This document shows positions 20,459 through 38,276 of a DNA stretch of 64,000 nt, one piece after another (within the stretch, counting starts at the first letter, position 1; each line of letters opens with the position of its first letter). The stretch covers positions 1-64,000 of the forward strand of contig JADGEM010000013.1 of the NCBI GenBank assembly GCA_016744375.1, given 5' to 3'. This DNA comes from Gammaproteobacteria bacterium (GTDB taxonomy: Bacteria > Pseudomonadota > Gammaproteobacteria > GRL18). The notes beneath the pieces were generated by a model. The model had not been told where the DNA came from. It ran no database searches and was given only the letters and a program-made list of their open reading frames with translations. The position numbers and the translations under genes were made by a program.

Positions 20459-21649
20459 ATGCTAGTATCTAAATATAGGTTAAACTTTGGTCAAATTATG
20501 CAAGCAGAACCAGCCTCTATTCTAATTGTTGATGATATACGCGATAATATTAGTTTGCTGTCAGATTATCTGAAGGCAGATTATCAGGTGCTTGCGGCAA
20601 ATAATGGAGAAAAAGCACTGATTATTGCTGAAAAGCTGCACCCTGACCTCATTCTTCTTGATATCATGATGCCCGTTTTAAATGGTTATGAAGTATGTGA
20701 AAAGCTGAAAGAAAATTCCACCACTGCCGATATCCCTGTCATATTCTTATCGGCATTGAGTACTGGTGATGATGAGTCTAGAGGGCTCAGTTATGGTGCA
20801 GTGGATTATATTTCCAAGCCGTTTAATTTAAAAGTATTATGTACTCGAATTCAAACTCAGCTTAAATTAAGGCAGGCTCAAAAAGAGCTGCATCAATACA
20901 ATAAAGATCTTGAAAAGTGTGTTGCTGATAGAACCGCTGAGTTGTCACATGCGAATGAGCGCCTGAAAAAATTAGATGTGACACGACAGAATTTTCTGGC
21001 ATTAATTTCTCATGAATTAAGAACACCAGCTTGTGGTGTTCTGGGACTTGCAGAGCTGGCTTATCACTCTCTTGAACAGTATGAGGATATTGGTGAACAC
21101 TATAATGCTTTTAAAGATTCCAGCGAACGATTAATACAAACCATTGATAATGCCTTGCTATTAACTGAGCTGTTGACTAATGAGAATTTTTTAGAAATGG
21201 AGACTCTGGAAATGGCTCCTTTATTGAACGCTGCTTTGACCCACCTTACTGAGAAGATAGGTTATGCCGCACTGGATTATGAAATCATTACTTCTTCAAG
21301 TGATTTGCTGGTTGATGCGAATCGACAATTACTGGTCAGTAGCCTGACAACTCTACTGCAAATGGCATTTATGTTAAGCCAGAAAGGATCAAAACTGCAG
21401 CTAAGAAGTTACAAACAGGATGATACTTATGTTTTGCAAATTCGCTTTTCTGCATTACCCGTTTCAGACTCAGCATTAAGCTCTTATTTTGATGTTTTTT
21501 CAACACAACGTTCGAACTCCTATATTGAAAATCTGGGTTTAAGTGTCCCTGTGGCGGCACAAATTATTGAAGCATTTGACGGATCTGTTTCACTTCAGAA
21601 AACAGAAGGTGAAATTATTGAAATTGTCATGCGACTTAATTGTGCTTAA
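20459..21649 (+). CDS. response regulator fused to histidine-kinase-like region with degenerate ATPase domain
   Basis: A 396-residue cytoplasmic signalling protein. Residues 20-140 are a receiver domain with the acidic pair DD, the phospho-accepting Asp68 (LLDIMMP) and the conserved lysine in SKPFN. A coiled coil (about 140-175) leads to a HisKA helix with SHELRTP, histidine at residue 185. The C-terminal region keeps the length of an ATP-binding domain but lacks the N-box asparagines (LTTLLQMAFM), has no DxGxG, and keeps only a remnant LGL of the last glycine box. I infer a kinase-dead transmitter that may accept or pass phosphate. A start at ATG 20498 (MQAEPASILIVDD) is possible. Confidence 0.82.
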   Translation: MLVSKYRLNFGQIMQAEPASILIVDDIRDNISLLSDYLKADYQVLAANNGEKALIIAEKLHPDLILLDIMMPVLNGYEVCEKLKENSTTADIPVIFLSALSTGDDESRGLSYGAVDYISKPFNLKVLCTRIQTQLKLRQAQKELHQYNKDLEKCVADRTAELSHANERLKKLDVTRQNFLALISHELRTPACGVLGLAELAYHSLEQYEDIGEHYNAFKDSSERLIQTIDNALLLTELLTNENFLEMETLEMAPLLNAALTHLTEKIGYAALDYEIITSSSDLLVDANRQLLVSSLTTLLQMAFMLSQKGSKLQLRSYKQDDTYVLQIRFSALPVSDSALSSYFDVFSTQRSNSYIENLGLSVPVAAQIIEAFDGSVSLQKTEGEIIEIVMRLNCA

Positions 21650-21667
21650 CTGCCCTGTATTCAAAGC

Positions 21668-22216
21668 ATGAATCCCACCCCTGAAGCTATTCTTGATTAT
21701 TGGTATAGCGTTGACATGAAAAAGGCCTGGTTTCAATCGACACCAGAAATTGATACTCAAATCAGAGATAACTATGAGTACTTATGGGAACAGGCAGCTG
21801 CAGGAGCTTTAAACCATTGGGCTGAGACTCCTGATGGTGCCTTGGCTCTGGTCATTGTTCTGGATCAGTTTCCTCTGAATATGTTCCGAGATCAGGCCCG
21901 AAGTTTTCAGACAGAGCAGCTTGCTGTCCAAGTAACTCGGCAGGCAATTAAGCGGGGATTTGATCGCAAGATAACGCAAAACAGACTTTCTTTTTTATTT
22001 ATGCCTCTAATGCATAGTGAGAATATGGTCGATCAGGAATTGTCGGTGCAGCTTTTTGAACAAACAAAGCTGGATGACAATATACGTTTTGCCCGGCATC
22101 ACCGGGATATTATTCGAAAGTTTGGTCGTTTTCCTCACCGCAACCCTATTTTAAAACGTCAAAGTTCGCATGAGGAATTAGAATATCTGAGTTCAAAACA
22201 AGCTTTTATGGGCTGA
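21668..22216 (+). CDS. DUF924 family protein
   Basis: A 182-residue cytoplasmic helical protein of the DUF924 family. Hallmarks are ILDYWYSVDMKKAWFQSTPEID at the start, ALALVIVLDQFPLNMFRD mid-protein, and the conserved FARHHRDIIRKFGRFPHRN near the C-terminus, a histidine- and arginine-rich stretch that suggests a ligand or metal site. The fold is TPR-like in solved relatives, but no activity is established. It follows the regulator gene by 18 bp on the same strand and may be co-transcribed with it. Confidence 0.88.
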   Translation: MNPTPEAILDYWYSVDMKKAWFQSTPEIDTQIRDNYEYLWEQAAAGALNHWAETPDGALALVIVLDQFPLNMFRDQARSFQTEQLAVQVTRQAIKRGFDRKITQNRLSFLFMPLMHSENMVDQELSVQLFEQTKLDDNIRFARHHRDIIRKFGRFPHRNPILKRQSSHEELEYLSSKQAFMG

Positions 22217-22377
22217 ACATTGCTTGCTTTCCACAAGCCGGTATTATCGTTTTTCTTAACACTTTTATGGTGAGTTTTTAATATCACACCTGCAAAAATA
22301 AGTGATTCTCCAGCGTTTTTGTATAAATAACTGAGATAGATTAATCATTCAACAGGCTTACAATTTACCACTTAATA

Positions 22378-22453
22378 ATACAATGTTTAATTAATTTAAA
22401 AATATATTGAACATTGTTTAAAATTGTGTCATATTATATTCAACACTGTTTAA
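22378..22453 (+). promoter_or_regulatory. triple TGTTTAA motif upstream of pspA
   Basis: TGTTTAA occurs at 22384-22390, 22415-22421 and 22447-22453, spaced 31 and 32 bp, about three DNA turns. Copies 2 and 3 extend to TTGAACATTGTTTAA and TTCAACACTGTTTAA, imperfect palindromes. Located 50-130 bp before the pspA start, this looks like a multi-site operator. Confidence 0.55.
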
Positions 22454-22506
22454 TAAAGACAGTTTTTTTAATCAACTGTGACTCTGTAATTCAGAAGGTG
22501 AATAAT

Positions 22507-23175
22507 ATGACTAATATATTTAAACGTATCAACGATGTAATTAATGCTAATATCAATGATTTAATTGATAAAGTTGAAGATCCTGAGCGTATGATCAAAC
22601 AAATTATTCGTGAGATGGAAGAAAATATTCGATACTCAAAAGAGGGGGTTATTTCGGCAATTGCCAGTGAAAAACGATTATTTCGTGAACTTGAACAGCA
22701 CCGGGTTAAGTTTGAAGAGTGGCAAAATAAGGCTGAAGTTGCCATGAAAAGAGACAATGAAGAACTTGCCAGGGCGGCTCTAGGACAGAAAAAAGAGCAT
22801 GAACAGCTAATAAATCGGGTGGAGCCCATGTGGCGAGCTGCCTCAAGAACAAGTAATGATCTCAAGCACCAGCTAAGACAACTGGAAGATAAGCTGACTG
22901 ATGCTAAACGAAAGAAAGGATCATTGGTGGCACGCCAAAGGGCTGCACAAACTCAGGAGTATATGATAAATACCGGAGTTGATTTTGATACTCATCTAAC
23001 GGCTCAGGATAATTTTAACCGCATGGAAGATAAAGTGATGGAGATGGAAGCCCGTGCTCAGGCGTGTTCTGAATTAGAAGGTGATAGCATTCAGGAAGAG
23101 ATTTATGTTGAGATGGCAATTGAAGCTGAAATTAATTCAGAAATGGATGAATTAAAAAAGAAATTTGGAATGTAA
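22507..23175 (+). CDS. pspA: phage shock protein A homologue (PspA/IM30)
   Basis: A 222-residue ESCRT-III-like coiled-coil protein that binds the inner membrane and preserves it under stress. It begins with the amphipathic MTNIFKRINDVINANINDLIDK helix, followed by DPERMIKQIIREMEE, the family signature, and continuous heptad-rich coil to the end. Length equals that of E. coli PspA (222). I chose ATG 22507, preceded by AAGGTG; the frame extends upstream to 22414 but without family homology. No pspB, pspC or pspF is adjacent. Instead two giant membrane proteins follow, separated by a strong hairpin. An operator-like triple repeat precedes it. Confidence 0.93.
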   Translation: MTNIFKRINDVINANINDLIDKVEDPERMIKQIIREMEENIRYSKEGVISAIASEKRLFRELEQHRVKFEEWQNKAEVAMKRDNEELARAALGQKKEHEQLINRVEPMWRAASRTSNDLKHQLRQLEDKLTDAKRKKGSLVARQRAAQTQEYMINTGVDFDTHLTAQDNFNRMEDKVMEMEARAQACSELEGDSIQEEIYVEMAIEAEINSEMDELKKKFGM

Positions 23176-23198
23176 TTTATTTGTACCATTGTTACATC

Positions 23199-23222
23199 GG
23201 GGGAGCTCTCAAATGCTCCCCC
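23199..23222 (+). other. stem-loop between pspA and membrane gene
   Basis: GGGGGAGC (23199-23206) pairs perfectly with GCTCCCCC (23215-23222) around an 8-base loop. No T-tract follows, so it more likely protects the pspA mRNA 3' end or tunes the ratio to the downstream genes than acts as a full terminator. Confidence 0.65.
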
Positions 23223-23250
23223 AAATAGGCTCAAATTGTTGGAGTTTGAT

Positions 23251-25554
23251 ATGTTGAGTAGTTCGTTTTACCCGTTTTTGATTTTCTTTGATTCAGTGAG
23301 TCAACTCGATAGTCTGCCGTTATGGGGACTGCTCATTATTTCTGTGGGTATTAATCTTCATCTTTTTAAACAAAATAAGAAACTCAGGGCTCAACTGAAA
23401 CCTAAAAAAAATCAGTTACCAGCCAGGCTGAAAAAACCTTTGCCGGCGTTAAAACCTGCAGGGTTTCAGACTTTTTCTGAGCTAGAAAATGAAATGAATG
23501 ATAGCCTCTTTCTGGAAGAAGATGACTTAGTTATTGAAGCGCCAGAGCCTGTTGCTAACAGTAATGGACTATATAGTTTAATACAATCAATAAGTGGTTG
23601 GCATAAATCATTGGTGCCTTTTTTATTGCAGAATATTGGCTGGTTTATTGGTGTTTTATGTTTTATCAGTGGTTCGATTTTCTTTATTTCTTATACAGAA
23701 GGTTTTAACAAAAGCCTGACTATTTTTTATACGGTATTAAGTTACACTTTATTATTAGCCTGGGGTGGCTACCGCTTAAAAGATAAAGTTTCCCATGCCT
23801 CTACGAGTGCTTATGTTCTGATGGCGACCAGTTTTTTGCTCACCCCTCTCAATTTTACCGCGGCTACTCAGCTCCTGGGAAATAGCATCGGGACGTTTCA
23901 ATTTTTTATTTCAATCGCATCAACTCTGATTGCTTTTGGCTCCTTATATTACACCAGTAGACTGATCAGCGGTTTATTTAATCGTCACTTGTTGACTCAT
24001 TTTTCACCGGTTTTCTTTACTTTAAGTTGTCTTCAATTGTTGGTGCCATGGGTGCAGCAGGGTCAGAGTATATTCTGGTTGCTTATCGTTCAAATTAGCA
24101 TTATAGGGATATTGTTGTGGGCTTTGATTAATTATATGCCGGCATTATTAAAGCAGGTATTTATTGACAGAAAATATTTACTGCTTATGAGTGCGGGTAG
24201 TTTGATTTATACGGCGCTGGTTTCTTTCATTCACATTACGATGAGTAGTCCTGTGCCAATTGAACTTAATTATTATGCTCCGATTATTCTATTGCTTAGT
24301 AGTGCCTTATTTTACATGGATGGACAGCTTAATGATTATAAGGAGCAAATGAAATTATTATCATATTTTAGCTTTGTTTCCTATGCCGTATCTTTCATTG
24401 CAATAGCAATCTCTGTGAATGTTGAGCCAATACGATATCTGACGGTGTTTTTAGCTGTTTTGCTTTATGCTCGATTAATCTGGCTTTATCGCTCACTGGT
24501 GCCATTGTATCTGGTTTTTATTCTTTTAGGCTTCCTGCAGTTCGATATGATCTTGTCTGACTGGTTACTATCCATACCCGGAATGAGCTCAGACACTATC
24601 CATCATTGGTTTTTTCTAGCTTCTTTTCCTTTATTGCTGATTGCTTTCTTAGCTCTGAGGGTATTGAGAAAATCAGAGAGTTTAAGGGGTAAAACGTTTA
24701 GTATTACACGCCATTTATTTCATATTGTTATGATCAGTTCAATGAGTCTTAGTATCTATAGTCAGTGGACCATTGCCCTATATTACTTTACTGAAACAAG
24801 CAGCTTTTCAGTGGCTGTTTTTCTTAATCTATGCAACAGTCTGATTGTTTTTTTCAGCAGTTATTATTTGCTTAAATCACAACAGATAAATGCCTATGAA
24901 CTTTCAGGCCATAAATTTTATAGTGTTTACTTATACCTTTTACTTATTCTTCCTGTGATTCACATTTTATTAAGTTTTCAAGTGCTTTTTTCAATGGATA
25001 TAAAATTAGTCTTCATCTGTTTGCTTGTTTTTTTCTACTCACTTAATAGTCGCTATGATTTTATTTCATTTTATGGTGATAAGGAAAATGAGTACGATGG
25101 CTTGATGAACAGGCAGATGAATCGTAAGTTATTTATTAACATGTCAATAGTCATAAGCCTGTTGCTTCTTTCAATGGCTGCAGCTGGGTATTCATTATCC
25201 ATAAAAAATGCTTTATTGTTTTTTATTATTTCACTCAATTTTTTATTCCTAAGTCTGAATTTATTGAATCGAGCTCTGTTTTACTTTTTTTTAATGATTG
25301 TTTCAGTGGCAATTTTAACAATTAAACTTTATTTAAGTCATTCACCTTCAACGGGATTTCTAGTTATCAGTTCAGCTCTGCTTATTTTTTACTTTATTCA
25401 TTGGCTTGATGGTAAAAGAAAAAATGAAATAGAACGTATTAATATTGATATCAGTAGACAGGATAATCCAGATAAAATTTTAGGCTTTTATCCTGTGAAG
25501 GATTATTGTATTGAAGGTCAAGTAGAGGAGACAAACAATGTCCAGGTCAGATAG
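23251..25554 (+). CDS. large polytopic membrane protein, unknown function
   Basis: A 767-residue inner-membrane protein I do not recognise. One membrane helix near residues 20-40 is followed by a basic, proline-rich cytoplasmic linker (KPKKNQLPARLKKPLPALKP) and an acidic stretch, and then by roughly twenty hydrophobic segments from about residue 120 to 730. It carries no obvious catalytic motif, nucleotide site or conserved charged pair. This resembles the DUF2157/DUF2339-type multi-helix proteins in general layout only. I chose ATG 23251 with GGAG 7-10 bases upstream; TTG 23236 in the same frame is less likely. The 3' end overlaps the next gene by 17 bp, so both are made together, downstream of pspA. 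Confidence 0.75.
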   Translation: MLSSSFYPFLIFFDSVSQLDSLPLWGLLIISVGINLHLFKQNKKLRAQLKPKKNQLPARLKKPLPALKPAGFQTFSELENEMNDSLFLEEDDLVIEAPEPVANSNGLYSLIQSISGWHKSLVPFLLQNIGWFIGVLCFISGSIFFISYTEGFNKSLTIFYTVLSYTLLLAWGGYRLKDKVSHASTSAYVLMATSFLLTPLNFTAATQLLGNSIGTFQFFISIASTLIAFGSLYYTSRLISGLFNRHLLTHFSPVFFTLSCLQLLVPWVQQGQSIFWLLIVQISIIGILLWALINYMPALLKQVFIDRKYLLLMSAGSLIYTALVSFIHITMSSPVPIELNYYAPIILLLSSALFYMDGQLNDYKEQMKLLSYFSFVSYAVSFIAIAISVNVEPIRYLTVFLAVLLYARLIWLYRSLVPLYLVFILLGFLQFDMILSDWLLSIPGMSSDTIHHWFFLASFPLLLIAFLALRVLRKSESLRGKTFSITRHLFHIVMISSMSLSIYSQWTIALYYFTETSSFSVAVFLNLCNSLIVFFSSYYLLKSQQINAYELSGHKFYSVYLYLLLILPVIHILLSFQVLFSMDIKLVFICLLVFFYSLNSRYDFISFYGDKENEYDGLMNRQMNRKLFINMSIVISLLLLSMAAAGYSLSIKNALLFFIISLNFLFLSLNLLNRALFYFFLMIVSVAILTIKLYLSHSPSTGFLVISSALLIFYFIHWLDGKRKNEIERINIDISRQDNPDKILGFYPVKDYCIEGQVEETNNVQVR

Positions 25555-28186
25555 CTTAGAGCGTATTCCTGTTAATTTAATTCAGCAGCCAGTTGAGCGT
25601 GCTGCGCTTCTGGTTTGGGTGATTGCCTTTGCTCAATTTTTTACCTATTCATCAACTTCTGAACTCACAGGATCTCTAAGCTGGTATTTAACCGCTCCTG
25701 CCTTGATGCTGGCTTCAATGGTCGTTGCGATACGTTCGCGTAATTTTCTACCTTTATTGATTTTGAATGTCAGCGGGGCCATTGCAGTACTAGCTTTATT
25801 TATGCCTGAAGTGGTGATGAAAATGAGTGGATTTAATCTTTTTGAACTTCAGTTTTTACAAATAAACCATCAGGATAAGCATCAAGCCTTAATGATACTG
25901 AATCTTTATACACTTGTTTTGTTTGTGTTAAGTCGTCATTTTCTGTATAGCAGGGCTTTTATTGTAGTGCAACAGTTTGTAAACTCAGATAAAAATAATA
26001 ATGCTTCTATTGAGAATAAAGTGCAGGTTCTTTCTCAACAATTTGAATCATTTCTATTTCTTTTGACATTTATTATTATTAACATCACTCTTATTTTTAG
26101 TCTGAACCTTCCTGAACAATATACGCTTGTCAGCTTAAGCTCAGCGATTATTTTTTTGTTTATTTCGGGTGCACATATCAGTCCATCGAAGCGTGGATTG
26201 TTATTGCCGATTTATCTTTTTCTATTACTGATGTCTTATCTGCTGGTTCAATCGGATACCAATAGACTCTTCCTGACTGATTACATGAATGAAACGGTGA
26301 ATGGACAATTTTTAGATGCTGATTTAATCTCTTTTATTGTCTTTTCTTTTGTTCTTTGGGGCTGGCATAATTTTATATCACAGCACTATAATCGATTCTT
26401 TAAGCAGCTCAATATATCGACAACCTTATGGCCTCTATTGGGCTTATTTGTTCTGGTTGCTTTTTTCTTTAATACTTCTATGTCACTGATTATTCATCCG
26501 CTGTATTTAGTCCTGGTTGTGGTTTATCTGTTCTTAATATTGCGCAATACTTCATCTCAGTTGATTCCATGGGCTATTATTTTATTATTCAGCCTGCTTA
26601 TGCTTGTTGTTGAAATACCTCTTAATATGAATTTATTTTCCAGAAAAGTAATTTCTCATTTTGGTTTTTATGGTCAACAATCCCTACTGTATTGTTTTTC
26701 CCTGATTTTATTCAGCCTTTTGTGGGAGCGTTATATTAATCCATTTCTTATGAAATCAGGGTGGTCAAAAGTTTCATTTAAACAACCGGTTATTGCCGTG
26801 ACATTTGCTGTGGCCATGCTTTGGTATGTGATCAATATTGTTATGGTCACTGGTTTAATCACGGGATGGTTTGATTTAATTCATGAAGGTTTGGCAATAG
26901 AAATGACAACAGTACTGGTGATTATTTCATTTGTGTTGTTATCCCAATTTATAAGTAGTAAGTTATTGGCAAATCTTACTCATTCGAGTCTCATGTTTTT
27001 GATCATTGTCCTTTGGTATGATGGTAACGCTGCACATAACTCTGGTGGTGATCAAGTTTTGCCTGTGTATGCATTATTTTCACTCATACATCTCCTTTGG
27101 GTTGCACTACCAGTCATTGTCGATCGTTTATATGAACGTTTTGGTGGTCATCTGAAATTTAATTATCCTGAGAATTTTAATAAAACAGCCATCTACTGGA
27201 TAATGTTAAGCTTTGTTATGAGTATCATTTACTTACTGAACTTTGTAAATAGCCGAACAGTGGGTCTTGACAGTTCAGTATTTTTCTCCAGTATTGTTCT
27301 TCTTTTTATCGCCTCATTAATAATGTCCAGACGCTATGTTGCTACAGCCTGGGGTATCACCAGCTATTTATTAGCAGCAGCACTGATTGTATCAATACGT
27401 TTTATGATACTGGGTTATGTGCCCGTCAATGCTTATGATACAAGCGGGATATTAATTGTTTCGATGATTCTATATGGCGCCAATCAGCAGTCTCATTTAC
27501 CATCACTGGTTGTAACAGAGAATATAGTTATGAGCTCTGATGTACTGGTGAAACTATTACCACTAACCGCCCTATTGACTATCTCATGGCAGGTAGCATC
27601 TTTGCACAGCAGTATAACGCTGCTACTTTTAGGCGTATTTTATCTGCTGACTCAAAAGAATAGTCGTCTTGCCCTTTATTCAGGATTTTTATTCATTAAT
27701 CTCTCGATATATCTATGGATGCCCATATTTTCAAACTATACTAATATGATGCTACTCTATATCATGCCGGTTTCATTCAGCTTACTCTTTATCACTCATC
27801 TGCATAGAAATGAAATAAAACCTGGCTTGCGTAATAATATGCGCCTAATGGCACTAGGGGCTTTATATCTGGTTGCTGCTGCAGATATTTTTATCAGCTC
27901 ATCATTACTGTTGTTTTTTGTTGGCTTGCTGATGGGCTTACTGGGCATAATGTACGGTATTAGTCGAAAAACAAAAGCCTTTCTCTTTACCGGCATTGGT
28001 TTTATTGTTATTAATATTCTGGGGCAATTAATTGTATTCTACCCCGATGACCGTCTCGGGAGAGCATTGATTTTAATGGCAACGGGTGCTTTGATTACAG
28101 CGATAATGGTTTGGCTGAATATTAAACGTGAATACTTGTTGTCGAAAATACAATTATTTCGCTCAGATATAGAACAATGGGATTAG
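25538..28186 (+). CDS. second large polytopic membrane protein, unknown function
   Basis: An 882-residue protein with more than twenty hydrophobic segments and short loops, unassigned. The N-terminus (MSRSDSLERIPVNLIQQPVERAALLVWVIAFAQFF) is cytoplasmic and polar for about 25 residues. The soluble loops are short, the longest near residues 145-165 (NSDKNNNASIENKVQVLSQQ) and around 540. The start has AGAGGAG upstream and lies within the end of the previous gene, indicating translational coupling. The pair are similar in size and texture and may be distant paralogues or two halves of one complex. A terminator follows, closing the unit pspA plus two membrane genes. Confidence 0.75.
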   Translation: MSRSDSLERIPVNLIQQPVERAALLVWVIAFAQFFTYSSTSELTGSLSWYLTAPALMLASMVVAIRSRNFLPLLILNVSGAIAVLALFMPEVVMKMSGFNLFELQFLQINHQDKHQALMILNLYTLVLFVLSRHFLYSRAFIVVQQFVNSDKNNNASIENKVQVLSQQFESFLFLLTFIIINITLIFSLNLPEQYTLVSLSSAIIFLFISGAHISPSKRGLLLPIYLFLLLMSYLLVQSDTNRLFLTDYMNETVNGQFLDADLISFIVFSFVLWGWHNFISQHYNRFFKQLNISTTLWPLLGLFVLVAFFFNTSMSLIIHPLYLVLVVVYLFLILRNTSSQLIPWAIILLFSLLMLVVEIPLNMNLFSRKVISHFGFYGQQSLLYCFSLILFSLLWERYINPFLMKSGWSKVSFKQPVIAVTFAVAMLWYVINIVMVTGLITGWFDLIHEGLAIEMTTVLVIISFVLLSQFISSKLLANLTHSSLMFLIIVLWYDGNAAHNSGGDQVLPVYALFSLIHLLWVALPVIVDRLYERFGGHLKFNYPENFNKTAIYWIMLSFVMSIIYLLNFVNSRTVGLDSSVFFSSIVLLFIASLIMSRRYVATAWGITSYLLAAALIVSIRFMILGYVPVNAYDTSGILIVSMILYGANQQSHLPSLVVTENIVMSSDVLVKLLPLTALLTISWQVASLHSSITLLLLGVFYLLTQKNSRLALYSGFLFINLSIYLWMPIFSNYTNMMLLYIMPVSFSLLFITHLHRNEIKPGLRNNMRLMALGALYLVAAADIFISSSLLLFFVGLLMGLLGIMYGISRKTKAFLFTGIGFIVINILGQLIVFYPDDRLGRALILMATGALITAIMVWLNIKREYLLSKIQLFRSDIEQWD

Positions 28187-28590
28187 TTCAGGTTTTGTTT
28201 ATGCTTCGTTTTTTATGTGCCGGCTATGGCTGGCCTTTTTTTCGTTATTATGGCAGATAGAGAGCTGGAGCACTCAATGATGCTGAACAATTACAAGTCA
28301 GGAAACAATTAAAAGTACTGAAAATAATTGAGGAATAATGGAAAATATATTTGGAATTTTATTTATAGTGCAAGTGCATTAGTTGATAGTAAAATTAGAT
28401 GCAGCATAAAAACAGTTCTATTAATCGCCTGAATTTGAAAAGTATCAGTGAATTGAATATCATTGCACCTGCATTGGCGTTGCTGTCGAATAACTAAGCA
28501 GGCAATTCCTTGAGTGATTATAATAACGAATAGACTGCGCATGAAAAGCATGTGTTGGTAGCTTTCCACCTAAATAAGGACTAAATATAC
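28187..28590. other. 404-bp gap before polA
   Basis: It holds the terminator of the membrane-protein genes (28219-28241) and the polA leader with AAGGA about 11 bases before ATG. Between them, 28261-28338 reads as RAGALNDAEQLQVRKQLKV before a stop, protein-like but without a start codon; it may be a chance frame or a gene scrap. Nothing else is evident. Confidence 0.5.
28219..28241 (+). terminator. intrinsic terminator after the pspA-membrane unit
   Basis: GCCGGC (28219-28224) pairs with GCTGGC (28229-28234, one G-U) around TATG, followed by C and T7. Confidence 0.8.
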
Positions 28591-33453: not shown

Positions 33454-35754
33454 TTACTTCGTCAGACTCATAAAGAGCTGGGGTAGTTTTTCAGGCAGTT
33501 TTTCAACATGATCGATAACGGTATAACCATTTTTACCAAAAATATCTCCGATATATTCGTCGGCTTTTTTATCCAGGCTAATGCAGTGGGTGTAGATATT
33601 TTTACTGGACAGTTCTTCTACCGCTTTTCGCGTGTCTTCGATTAATAGCTGTTCATCATCAACATCAATATCAGCAGGTTCACCATCGGTTAGTACCAAT
33701 AATAATTTCTTATCTGCAGGCTGACTTTCCAGATAGTGAGCGGCATGGCGTATTGGTGCACCCATACGAGTTGAATACCCTGCCTCCATTGCAGCCAGAC
33801 GGGACTTCACATCATCATCCCAGTGTTCACTATAGCCTTTAATGTGCAGATAACGGACGTTATGACGAGTATCGGAATGAAAACCTGCAATAGCAAAGGG
33901 GTCATTAAGTTGCTCAATGGTCAGAGCCAGTAGAGAGACGGCTTCACGGCTTAATTCCAGAATGGATTGTTCACAGCCATCAGGGACTTCATGTAACGAG
34001 GCGGATAAATCCAGAAGCAGCATAACGGCAATATCACGACCATCATTCCTATGACTCATATTGATGCGGGGGTCAGGGGTATGACCACTCTTAAAATCAA
34101 TCAGAGAACGAATAGCAACATCCAGATCCAGTTCACTGCCTTCCTCCTGATAGCGAATACGCACCATTTGCTGTGGCTTGAGCAGTTCCAGCATTTTTTT
34201 CAGTTTTTTGGCCAGGCTGTCATGTTTGGCCAGAATCTGTTCTATTTTAGCGGGATCACCTTTGTAATGCAGTGTTTCATAGAGACTTACCCAGTCTGGG
34301 CGATAGGTCTTGGTGTTATAGTCCCACTCAGGATAATGACGAGGAGGTAATTTATCGATTTCGTGTTCATCTCGCTCCACTTCTCTGTGCTCATCGAAGG
34401 CCTCTTCCTCGTCACCTTCTTCAATAAATTTCCAGAGGTGACGATTGTCATCGCGATAGTCCACTACAGTGTTTTCAAAAACAATATTTGGAAAAGAATC
34501 ACTGGCCTGCTTGGTTTGGGCAATATAGGAAATACCCAGTTGCACCATATCTTTAACAGTAGCATTACCGGATTCCATCACCTCATGGAAACGGGCAATG
34601 AATTCAATAATTTTTTCATTTTTATAACAATGATCCGGGTTTAATAAACCCAGAGAGAGCATCGCAAGGCGGTGTAACAGGCAACTGGAGTTGGTGCTAT
34701 CACAGTTGTCCTCTTCAGGAATGGGATGCAGTGCTTGAAAAATACTACGCAGTCCGGGGTATTCTGCAATGGCCAGATACTCAACGCGAGCGTCTTCAAA
34801 AATTTCAATGGAAATGCGTTGAAACGGACTGAAGTTATCTGCCCATATTGCCTCGCCCCAGCGGCGATGAGCGGCAATATGGGCAATAGTGGCACGATAA
34901 CGATTAATGCCACTAATACCTGCCCGGTCATCATAAACATCAGGGATGCGGATACCCAGGCTGTCATAATAGGGCTTGGGTTTACGTAATTCATCAAAGC
35001 CCAGTGAATAGGGGACAAAGTGCTCATGATCCTGCCATAAGCCATACATATAAAGATCGAGTTTGCGTTCATGATCGGCAAATAGAGTGCCATGGCGCTC
35101 ACGGTGAAATATGGCTTTGCTATCTGCAGACTGCAGGCTAAAATAGTTTTTCTGGCGTTCAGGATGATTTCGGTAGTTGTTGGCGCCGTATTCTACCCAG
35201 TTCCTGATGCCCTCAATAGAGAGCTGACTCAGTAAATAGGATGACTGATTGAGAAAATCAGGTAAGCCGTCACTGGGAATAGTATCAACATGTCCATGGA
35301 TAGAACGGGTGGTTTTTCTCATCATCTCAAAAACAACATCAATATAGTGTTGTAATTGTTCCGTACTACCGAGACGACGTGCCGCTTCCGGTATGGTTTG
35401 CAGGAAGGGTAAAATAGATTTGCCATTGGGAGTACGTGAGAAATCCCAGACACATTTTGACACAGTCGCTATCATGCTTTCGTCTGTGTGGTGGACGATT
35501 TGAGGCATTTCTTCTAAATAAACCAGTACCGGCTCAAATCCACGGCCAATCATACAGACCAGGGATGCGCCAGAAAGGTAATCTGCGATACCTTGCTCAC
35601 TGAAGACCGCCTCAGCTTCTTCCATACAGTCGGCAAAAACGTCATCCAGTTGTGTAAATCCACATTTCAGCTGGTCACGAAAGACCTGCAGCTCAGGATT
35701 AAGCTCAGTAGTAGTATCTGTATCAGTCATGGCATTGCTCACAAGATTAGACAA
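33454..35754 (-). CDS. cbbO: RuBisCO activase component CbbO (von Willebrand factor A protein)
   Basis: A 766-residue cytoplasmic protein that works with the AAA+ ring CbbQ to remodel inhibited RuBisCO. The C-terminal von Willebrand factor A domain (from about residue 570) has the metal site LLLDLSASLHE (DxSxS) near 580, and later TDGEPADI. The long N-terminal region, with RFHEVMESG and EIFEDARVEYLA helices, is the CbbO-specific part that binds CbbQ and RuBisCO. Length fits (about 760-780). The start could be the internal methionine in NAMTDTD. It is the last gene of cbbM-cbbQ-cbbO on the minus strand. Confidence 0.93.
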   Translation of the reverse strand: MSNLVSNAMTDTDTTTELNPELQVFRDQLKCGFTQLDDVFADCMEEAEAVFSEQGIADYLSGASLVCMIGRGFEPVLVYLEEMPQIVHHTDESMIATVSKCVWDFSRTPNGKSILPFLQTIPEAARRLGSTEQLQHYIDVVFEMMRKTTRSIHGHVDTIPSDGLPDFLNQSSYLLSQLSIEGIRNWVEYGANNYRNHPERQKNYFSLQSADSKAIFHRERHGTLFADHERKLDLYMYGLWQDHEHFVPYSLGFDELRKPKPYYDSLGIRIPDVYDDRAGISGINRYRATIAHIAAHRRWGEAIWADNFSPFQRISIEIFEDARVEYLAIAEYPGLRSIFQALHPIPEEDNCDSTNSSCLLHRLAMLSLGLLNPDHCYKNEKIIEFIARFHEVMESGNATVKDMVQLGISYIAQTKQASDSFPNIVFENTVVDYRDDNRHLWKFIEEGDEEEAFDEHREVERDEHEIDKLPPRHYPEWDYNTKTYRPDWVSLYETLHYKGDPAKIEQILAKHDSLAKKLKKMLELLKPQQMVRIRYQEEGSELDLDVAIRSLIDFKSGHTPDPRINMSHRNDGRDIAVMLLLDLSASLHEVPDGCEQSILELSREAVSLLALTIEQLNDPFAIAGFHSDTRHNVRYLHIKGYSEHWDDDVKSRLAAMEAGYSTRMGAPIRHAAHYLESQPADKKLLLVLTDGEPADIDVDDEQLLIEDTRKAVEELSSKNIYTHCISLDKKADEYIGDIFGKNGYTVIDHVEKLPEKLPQLFMSLTK

Positions 35755-35865
35755 TTGTTGCTACAGAAAACACGGAAAAGAGATCAAGCATCGTTTGCTT
35801 TTGTTCGTGTTGGACGTGCTTTCAGTGGCTAATATGCTATTTAAAATAGTGCTCTTGTATAAAAA

Positions 35866-36675
35866 TCAGGAAAAAACACTATCAATTGCATGATCCAGAG
35901 TATCACGAATATCAGCGTCGTCAGTAATAGGGCGAACCAGAGCCATACGACAGGCTGATTTTTCTTCAACACCTTTGTTCATCAGGTTTGCTGCATATAC
36001 CAGTAAACGAGTTGAAATGCCTTCATCGAGGCCATGACCTTTGAGGTTTCTGGCTATGACTGCAATCTTGACTAGTTTCTTAGCAATTTCTTCGCTGGTG
36101 CCAGCTTCTTTAACCACAATACTGGCTTCAACTGAATTGGTTGGGTAATCAAATTCCAGTGCAGAAAAACGTTGTTTAGTGGATTGCTTCAGATCTTTCA
36201 TCAGGCTTTGATAGCCTGGATTGTATGAAATGACTAACTGGAAGTCTTCATGAGCTTTAATCATTTCGCCTTTTTTATCTAAAGGCAATTCACGTCGATG
36301 ATCGGTGAGTGGATGAATAACAACCGTAGTATCCTGGCGAGCTTCAACCACTTCATCCAGATAACAGATAGCACCAATACGAGCAGCAGTGGTTAATGGA
36401 CCATCAACCCAGCGTGTGCCATTGGCATCTAATAGGTAGCGACCGACCAGATCAGAGGCGGTCATGTCTTCATTACAGGCAACAGTAATTAGGGGTTTGC
36501 CTAATTTCCAGGCCATGTGTTCAATAAAACGGGATTTGCCACAACCGGTTGGCCCTTTAATCATCACAGGCAGACGAGCATCATAAGCAGCTTTGTATAA
36601 AGCAACTTCATCTTCCTGTGACTCGTAGTAAGGTTCTTCGCTTATTTTGTACTGTTCAATATCTTGATTGCTCAT
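35866..36675 (-). CDS. cbbQ: RuBisCO activase ATPase CbbQ (MoxR-type AAA+)
   Basis: A 269-residue AAA+ ATPase. Walker A is GPTGCGKS (residues 41-48), Walker B ICYLDEV (103-109), and sensor/arginine elements follow in [21 protein letters not shown]. The sequence and size match CbbQ of the NorQ/CbbQ group, which forms hexamers that bind CbbO and reactivate RuBisCO by ATP-driven removal of inhibitory sugar phosphates. It lies about 210 bp after cbbM, beyond a stem-loop that may reduce read-through, and about 110 bp before cbbO. The adjacent form II RuBisCO is its presumed client. Confidence 0.95.
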
Positions 36676-36824
36676 GCTTATCTTCCTATGTGACTTTCTT
36701 GTATGAATCAGTTGTACTCAGTTCTATTCCTGAATGACTCTTGTTATCTGTGATACAGGTTAAATGATTCAGGAATAACACTGATTTCTATTGTTTTTTT
36801 TAAGGTTTTTTATGGCTAAAGACA

Positions 36825-36852
36825 ACAAAGCCTCTGAAAATAGAGGCTTTGT
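36825..36852 (-). terminator. stem-loop between cbbM and cbbQ
   Basis: ACAAAGCCTCT (36825-36835) and AGAGGCTTTGT (36842-36852) form a perfect 11-bp stem 36 bp after the cbbM stop. The minus strand continues with a loosely T-rich TTGTCTTT, so partial termination that lets less transcript into cbbQO is plausible. Confidence 0.7.
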
Positions 36853-36887
36853 CATTAGATCTTCATATTAAGTACTCAGAAGAGTGC

Positions 36888-38276
36888 TTACTTGTGAACA
36901 CCTAACTTGTCTCTCCAACCTGGGTAAATTGAATCAGCATCATGTTCGAATGACTCGAAGGCACGAGCAAATTCATTATGCTCTTTCGCATATTCAATTG
37001 GGTCAGCACCTTGCTTCCAGCAATCATATGCCTGGTGTAGAGATTTTGCACCAGCAGCAGGAGAATCGATATGGCCATAAGAACCACCACCAGAAGTATT
37101 GATGACGTTACCATGACCCAGGTTCTCAAAGAATCCAGGTAGGCGCAGAGCATTCATACCACCAGAAATAATTGGAGTAGTTGGCTTCATACCATACCAT
37201 TTCTGGTGGTAAACAGGTCCCTGACACTCATCACGCTCAATCATATAAGCAATGATCTTGTCAGAAGTATCACCTTCCATCTTACCATAACCCATTGTGC
37301 CCACGTGGATACCGGAAGCACCCATCAGACGAGACATTTTAGCCAGGATATAAGCAGTATAACCACGCTTAGAAGAAGGAGAAGTTACAGCACCATGACC
37401 AGCACGGTGATAATGTAAGTACTGATCTGGGTACTGACGACGTGCTGTTGTGACCATACCAGGACCACCAACATATCCGTCAACCAGGAATGCAACTTTA
37501 TGAGCATCTTCACCAAAAGTTTCTAGAACAAAGTCAGCACGAGCACACATTTCGTAGTGATCATCTGCTGTGATGTTGGCAGAGAATAATTTTGCTTCGC
37601 CAGTCTCATCCTGAGCACGTTTCATGGCATCAGCAACTAAAGGAATAACCTTTTTCATTGGGCAGAAAACCTGGTTACCCTGAGGCTCATCATTCTTGAT
37701 GAAATCACCGCCAAGCCAGAACTGATAAGCAGCATCAGCAAAAGGCTCAGGACGTAAACCAAGTTTTGGCTTAATAATAGTACCTGCGATATAACCGCCA
37801 TTTTCAATAGGACGACCAAGAATGCGCCACATATCAGAAATGTCTTTAGAAGGACCATCAAATAACTGCAGCATTTTAGGTGGCACGTAGAAGTCAAACA
37901 TCTGAGCGTTCTTGATATCACCCATGCCCTGGTTGTTACCAATAGCCAGAGTCAGGAAAGAAACGATCATTGCACGACCATCAATGACATTGCGGTCAAA
38001 CAGTTCGTTTGGATAAGCAATTTTCATGATGCCCTTAGCTTCATCGATCTCATAAACTAAAGCATCAACACCTTTTGTGAAGTCATCAGTAGTCGAAACT
38101 TCAACATTGGTACCAGTAGAAGATTCAGCCGCAAAGTGAGCAGCTGCTTCCAGGTAACCATAACCTTCAGCAGGTTCCATTGTGTAAGCAACTAGAATAT
38201 GCTTACCGCCAGCGTGTAATTCGTCTTCTGTAAGACTTAAATCGGAGTAACGATTTGTTTGGTCTAATAATGCCAT
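36888..38276 (-). CDS. cbbM: ribulose-1,5-bisphosphate carboxylase, form II (CbbM)
   Basis: A 462-residue form II RuBisCO, the CO2-fixing enzyme of the Calvin cycle, active as large-subunit dimers without small subunits. Catalytic features are all there: Lys169 in TIIKPKLG, the carbamylated Lys194 with metal ligands Asp196 and Glu197 in FIKNDEP, HRAGHGA, and loop 6 Lys332 in [10 protein letters not shown]. The N-terminal [20 protein letters not shown] is typical of CbbM. No cbbS is present. cbbQ and cbbO follow and cbbR is divergent. It implies tolerance of high CO2 and low oxygen. The gene has a well-formed promoter with LysR-type sites upstream. Confidence 0.98.

Follow-up and report, generated by a model that had tools for sequence, protein, structure and literature searches.

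A distinct type of PspA encoded with two giant membrane proteins: a putative phage-shock-protein-like unit with a new membrane partner

The first 64,000 nucleotides of contig JADGEM010000013.1 (assembly GCA_016744375.1), from a gammaproteobacterium of the GRL18 lineage, were analysed. This stretch is referred to here as the window, and the draft genome from which it comes (4.29 Mb in 137 contigs) as G000. The window contains a unit of three genes: pspA, encoding a protein of the PspA/Vipp1 family, and two genes, termed A and B, that encode very large polytopic membrane proteins (Table 1). The pspA-A-B arrangement is beyond chance, as relatives conserve it, and PspA and the A/B proteins very probably function as partners. 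An original prediction made from the sequence of the window had outlined this unit, and the coordinates that it gave for the unit and the sizes that it gave for A, B and their overlap were correct.

Table 1. Features of the pspA-A-B unit (positions in the window).
Feature	Position	Strand	Remarks
Array of palindromic operator-like sites TTNAACANTGTTNAA	22376-22453	+	Conserved upstream of AB-type pspA
Palindrome copy 1	22376-22390	+	Degenerate, 2 mismatches
Palindrome copies 2, 3	22407-22421, 22439-22453	+	No mismatch
Promoter-like site TGAACA -18 bp- TATTAT	22408-22437	+	Consensus match only
pspA	22507-23175	+	222 residues; AB-type PspA/Vipp1-family (ESCRT-III-like) protein
GC-rich hairpin between pspA and A	23199-23222	+	24 nt; z -3.3
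Gene A	23251-25554	+	767 residues from an ATG with a GGAG box
Gene B	25538-28186	+	882 residues; 17-bp overlap with A
Intrinsic-terminator-like GC stem followed by T7, closing the unit	28219-28242	+	Sequence inspection

The pspA product is a full-length member of the PspA/IM30 family; residues 3-215 matched the Pfam model PspA_IM30 (PF04012) with an E-value of 5.9e-49 and a score of 167 bits, against a curated cut-off of 33.9. Its score with TIGR02977, the equivalog for PspBC-type PspA, was 150.7 bits and fell below the NCBIfam cut-off of 242.95. A maximum-likelihood tree resolved three groups: one of PspBC type and one of YjfJ type (each 100/100), and a third made up of the PspAs linked to A and B (the AB type). 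The labels 'PspBC type' and 'YjfJ type' were assigned from sequence resemblance and from the neighbouring genes in a few loci. When Nostoc Vipp1 was added, the AB-linked PspAs formed a clade (96/95) and, in this unrooted tree, grouped with Vipp1 and apart from the PspBC type (100/100). The AB-type proteins are 35-42% identical to Nostoc Vipp1 and approximately 31% identical to the PspBC type. Among solved structures, Vipp1 was the nearest relative of the window PspA (115 bits, against 86 for the E. coli PspA fragment) and of a second AB-type query (134 against 81), whereas a PspBC-type query scored 156 bits with the E. coli fragment and 122 with Vipp1; the comparison is rough because the E. 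coli chain has only 150 residues. The window PspA matches Vipp1 only up to Vipp1 residue 214, ending at the PspA core without the C-terminal extension. Judged by these sequence comparisons, the PspA partnered with A/B is a clade of its own, nearer to Vipp1 than the PspBC type is.

Hydropathy analysis gave 18 transmembrane (TM) segments for A, probably an undercount (15-20 in homologues), and 26 for B (25-35 in full-length homologues). A is composed of an N-terminal anchor, a soluble segment of approximately 90 residues, a SGW-x5-PFLxQNIGWF core and then many TM segments, with the strongest conservation between families in the core, at about residues 121-200. In B it is the last 200 residues that are most conserved between families; the C-terminal end is always KRExLLSKIxLFRADLxxW or a close variant, and R621, D634, H756, E759 and D783 are conserved polar residues in the alignment. 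The middle regions of both proteins differ in length and TM number among relatives. The A family was defined by its core, and the B family by a C-terminal core with FYPxxxxxrAliLM and the KRE...RADLxxW tail; the alignments place the window proteins in these families. Comparison of the A and B profiles gave weak C-terminal similarity only, which is insufficient for a claim that the two arose by duplication.

The unit had been described as of unknown type, and A and B indeed match no curated family. The window proteins and distant relatives from other families gave no match in Pfam or NCBIfam, all rows of the A and B alignments (10 relatives each) returned only chance Pfam hits at E-values up to 10, and PADLOC, PHROGs and PDB sequences yielded only sub-threshold chance hits; no well-characterised family with an unrelated function was found for either protein. 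A tblastn search of plasmids with a distant A relative also gave no match. An anti-phage defence system was considered and rejected, PADLOC giving no hit for PspA, A or B.

Within the genus, the distribution of the three genes was followed in 16 genomes. The window-type PspA (orthologues 70-92% identical), A and B occur in the identical six genomes (6/6 against 0/10); the naive chance of such a match, approximately 1e-4, ignores common descent. The genes are contiguous in the order pspA-A-B in G008 and G011, B of the latter running off the contig, and in G005, G010 and G012 contig ends cut the unit in or near A in a manner consistent with this order. A family-level search found further PspA-family genes in G007, G013 and G015, and second copies in G008, G010 and G011, so the proposition that genomes without A/B have no pspA was ruled out. 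The PspAs read in G007, G013 and G015, genomes without A and B, are of the YjfJ type by sequence, and the tie of A/B is therefore to one type of PspA and not to PspA generally.

The same pattern was obtained in a sample of 369 genomes of the class. A profile search found A in exactly G000, G091, G139, G196 and G221, and the AB-type PspA co-occurs with it in all five and in none of the other 364; PF04012 was found in 86 of the 369. The five come from four families, which are the independent units, and the naive chance of five shared genomes (approximately 2e-11) again ignores common descent. A profile built from the B proteins of the genus alone matched five further genomes in this sample (G091, G139, G196, G221 and G254). 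Sampling covered mainly this one class, to which the genomes among the matches listed in a wider search all belong.

The organisation of the genes in these families is informative. G139, of another family, carries pspA, A (867 residues) and B (1142 residues, overlapping A) in the order seen in the window. In G091 and G221, of a third family, A and B are fused in one open reading frame (ORF) of 1809 and 1789 residues, with the A core N-terminal and the B core C-terminal; pspA and the fused AB gene lie on different contigs in these genomes, and the PspA is still of the AB type, which is the strongest argument for a tie beyond the sharing of an operon. G196, of the fourth family, has A and a B that is interrupted by frame changes, probably a matter of draft quality. 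An integrase-like ORF runs antisense across the whole AB-type pspA of G196 (L069:2461-4032), where the coding strand was judged by the PspA match. The original prediction had paired A with B, which the conserved order and overlap in the family of G139 and the fusion in the third family support, and had proposed the pair as possible partners of PspA, in keeping with the co-occurrence in genus and class; that homologues might never occur with pspA is contradicted by the same data.

Such co-occurrence could stem from common descent and from a single mobile cassette, the genes being functionally unrelated. The unit is patchy within the genus (6/16) and its surroundings differ from family to family, as this would predict; set against it are the separated genes of G091 and G221, the fusion of A with B, and the persistence there of both the PspA clade and a related upstream palindrome, and this explanation is considered very improbable.

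It could also be proposed that A and B belong, as distant relatives, to the large group of DUF2157/DUF2339-like many-TM proteins, with a general and unrelated function, and that they share the pspA operon for regulation only. Their size, their many-TM texture and the weak C-terminal similarity between them recall that group, an impression that was tested by Pfam only, and the relevant passages of two surveys of phage-shock-protein (PSP) systems report DUF2157 TM helices in LiaF, which is a known PSP-type partner (PMC11237479, PMC9239133). The membership in DUF2157/DUF2339 that had originally been suggested was not borne out, as none of the 20 A and B relatives matched these models in Pfam at E-values up to 10, and a literature search found no paper with both PspA and DUF2339. 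Operon sharing alone is also an insufficient explanation, since pspA and AB still occur together in genomes in which they are unlinked. Little credence is given to this proposal, albeit more than to that of a mobile cassette.

The region upstream of AB-type pspA was also conserved. The palindrome TTNAACANTGTTNAA occurs there in 9 of 10 genomes, the nine coming from three families, and is also found before the unlinked copies of pspA. All six genus members have two or three copies (≤2 mismatches) spaced 30-32 bp apart (31-32 bp in the window), G139 carries an exact one, and in each of G091 and G221 there is one copy with a single mismatch; no clear copy was seen upstream of pspA in G196. In 287 kb of other sequence from these genomes there were no exact copies and a single one-mismatch copy. 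The only hits in the window with at most one mismatch are the two before pspA; as this count was equalled in 15 of 100 shuffles, the weight of the palindrome rests on its conservation and not on its number in the window. A sigma-70-like promoter lies between and over the palindromes, which cover its -35 region and sit just downstream of its -10 element; to judge by the motifs, this is the layout of a repressor-controlled promoter. Searches for a sigma-54 site (TGGCAC-N5-TTGC, ≤2 mismatches) found none upstream in 9 of the 10 genomes and one weak, distant match in G010. A literature search on the operator sequence returned nothing relevant.

The hairpin after pspA, which had been predicted to be strong, is so: its fold was matched by 1 of 200 shuffles, and hairpins are visible by eye at the equivalent position in G005, G010 and G139. 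It has no T-run and is thus not an intrinsic terminator; it is probably an RNA-processing or stoichiometry element. The terminator predicted to close the unit fared less well. Its stem and run of seven T residues are present, and the stem is visible in the fold computation, but the fold is no better than that of shuffled sequences.

The unit is flanked by genes for a DUF924 protein and a response-regulator/HisKA protein and by polA. As the original prediction had it, no pspB, pspC or pspF lies beside the unit, a statement that covers the flanking genes and the gaps around the unit, including that 3' of B, in which there is no PspB/PspC-like ORF (the rest of the genome was not searched for these genes). 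G000 holds one PspA-family gene in all, according to a genome search. The response regulator with HisKA and the DUF924 gene are directly upstream (20459-22216), and a DUF924 gene adjoins pspA in G008 as well (L012:6062-6685). Elsewhere in the window (33454-38276) genes for a VWA protein and an AAA ATPase of the CbbQ type adjoin one for the RuBisCO large chain, which makes autotrophy of the host probable.

The gene directly after B varies among relatives and is an envelope gene in some. In G010 it encodes a permuted papain-like amidase of the YiiX/YaeF type (Peptidase_C92, E 2.4e-29; L014:15662-17152), shares 10 bp with the end of B and, from its position, looks like a fourth gene of the operon. 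In G011 the start of a gene for an MscS_porin-domain protein, of the giant mechanosensitive-channel type, lies 18 bp past B (L015:1129 onward). In G005 B is followed on the same strand by a gene for a small, secreted-looking protein (L011:5104-5532) with a CCxxHD motif that recalls phospholipase A2 and with no Pfam match.

The unit was compared with described PspA systems. Like PspFABC of E. coli and Yersinia, it encodes a PspA/IM30 effector together with integral membrane partners, and a role in envelope stress may be supposed for it. It differs in that the neighbours of pspA are A and B, of 767 and 882 residues, in place of the small PspB and PspC; in that no PspB, PspC or PspF gene and no sigma-54 promoter was seen in the flanking region (pspF was not sought elsewhere); and in the clade of its PspA (100/100, approximately 31% identity). 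The resemblance to Vipp1/IM30 of cyanobacteria and chloroplasts is confined to the PspA core, and A and B are not known as partners of Vipp1. The YjfJ-type paralogues belong to the same PspA_IM30 family and occur in the same genus, but form a distinct clade (100/100), have other neighbours and are found without A/B. LiaIFGH, pspA-ydjGHI of Bacillus and other PSP systems also combine a PspA homologue with multi-TM partners; the latter are of small size or have Toastrack, Band 7 or zinc-ribbon domains, whereas A and B have no annotated domain. The effector is thus a bona fide member of the PspA family, and its partners, its clade and the cis-elements of the unit differ from those of described PSP systems.

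PspA is a membrane remodeller of the ESCRT-III superfamily. We think that this is a PSP-like unit whose membrane partner is new, and that it is probably an envelope-stress machine of a new kind, which dispenses with both known PspA partners. As a working model, the locus would be a self-contained module in which the soluble effector is an ESCRT-III-like membrane binder of the distinct, Vipp1-leaning PspA clade, and A and B would form the integral partner, a complex that totals approximately 45 TM helices and is in some genomes a single fused protein. This complex would be in the inner membrane, most likely as a sensor and docking platform that brings PspA oligomers to sites of membrane damage or strain, in the role that PspB/PspC fill in E. 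coli. The invariant tail of B is the best candidate for the contact with PspA. A repressor bound to the array of TTGAACANTGTTCAA palindromes would probably keep the sigma-70-type promoter shut off, and the hairpin that follows pspA probably raises the abundance of PspA above that of A and B. The specific proposal that A/B is a sensor or docking platform that recruits PspA, with the tail of B as the contact and expression under repressor control, is held with belief and doubt in about equal measure.

In the main rival to this sensor or docking role, AB is machinery that does a membrane job of its own (transport or translocation of lipids or envelope precursors, or a respiratory-membrane function), and PspA is its dedicated maintenance factor, protecting the surrounding membrane; AB would then be a client and not a sensor. 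The co-occurrence data fit this too, A and B are almost wholly embedded in the membrane and have no sensor domain, the conserved polar residues of B could make a functional site, and the third genes after B encode envelope and membrane enzymes and channels. However, Pfam, NCBIfam and the PDB contain no family of transporters or enzymes similar to either protein, and the number of TM segments in B varies by family (26, 31 and 35), which would be uncommon in a transporter whose pathway is fixed. A client role for AB is judged unlikely, yet it is the strongest of the alternatives.

Several observations weigh against the recruitment of PspA by A/B. No sensor domain was recognisable in either protein, and AlphaFold models of A and B built with five to six relatives were unusable, with mean predicted local distance difference test (pLDDT) scores of 44 for A and 51 for B. 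Genomes within one family are not independent. The profile scores for A and for AB-type PspA (the latter 346-400 bits in the five A-bearing genomes, against 138 bits in the next) are inflated because distant members sit in the profiles; the window PspA alone as query scored 200-242 bits with distant AB-type members and at most 101 with the others tested, and searches for B and A built without distant members agree with the pattern of co-occurrence. The palindrome was not found upstream of the unlinked fused AB of G091 and G221 and of A in G196, so co-regulation is not shown there. Finally, G254 has a divergent relative of the B C-terminus in a genome with YjfJ-type PspA only, and the B family can thus exist apart from the AB-type PspA. 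The G254 locus (L055:72-6855) encodes overlapping giant membrane proteins of 1458 and 808 residues. The second of these has the C-terminal core of B; the first cannot be recognised as A, profile comparison with A being unconvincing, and the pair is possibly a sister system.

No partner resembling A/B is mentioned in those parts of two surveys of PSP gene neighbourhoods that a keyword search reached (PMC11237479, PMC9239133). In these parts, neighbours of pspA are described through their protein domains, and as A and B have no domain model, surveys of this kind would probably see a lone pspA. More broadly, it is a tentative suggestion that the unit represents a separate ESCRT-III-like branch, in which a Vipp1-leaning PspA works obligately with an AB complex of approximately 45 helices, under an operator and regulator of its own and not PspF/sigma-54, to remodel or repair the inner membrane. 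If AB is the recruiter, it would be a new and very large PspA receptor outside the PspBC and Lia systems, with a defined candidate contact in the tail of B and a conserved operator.

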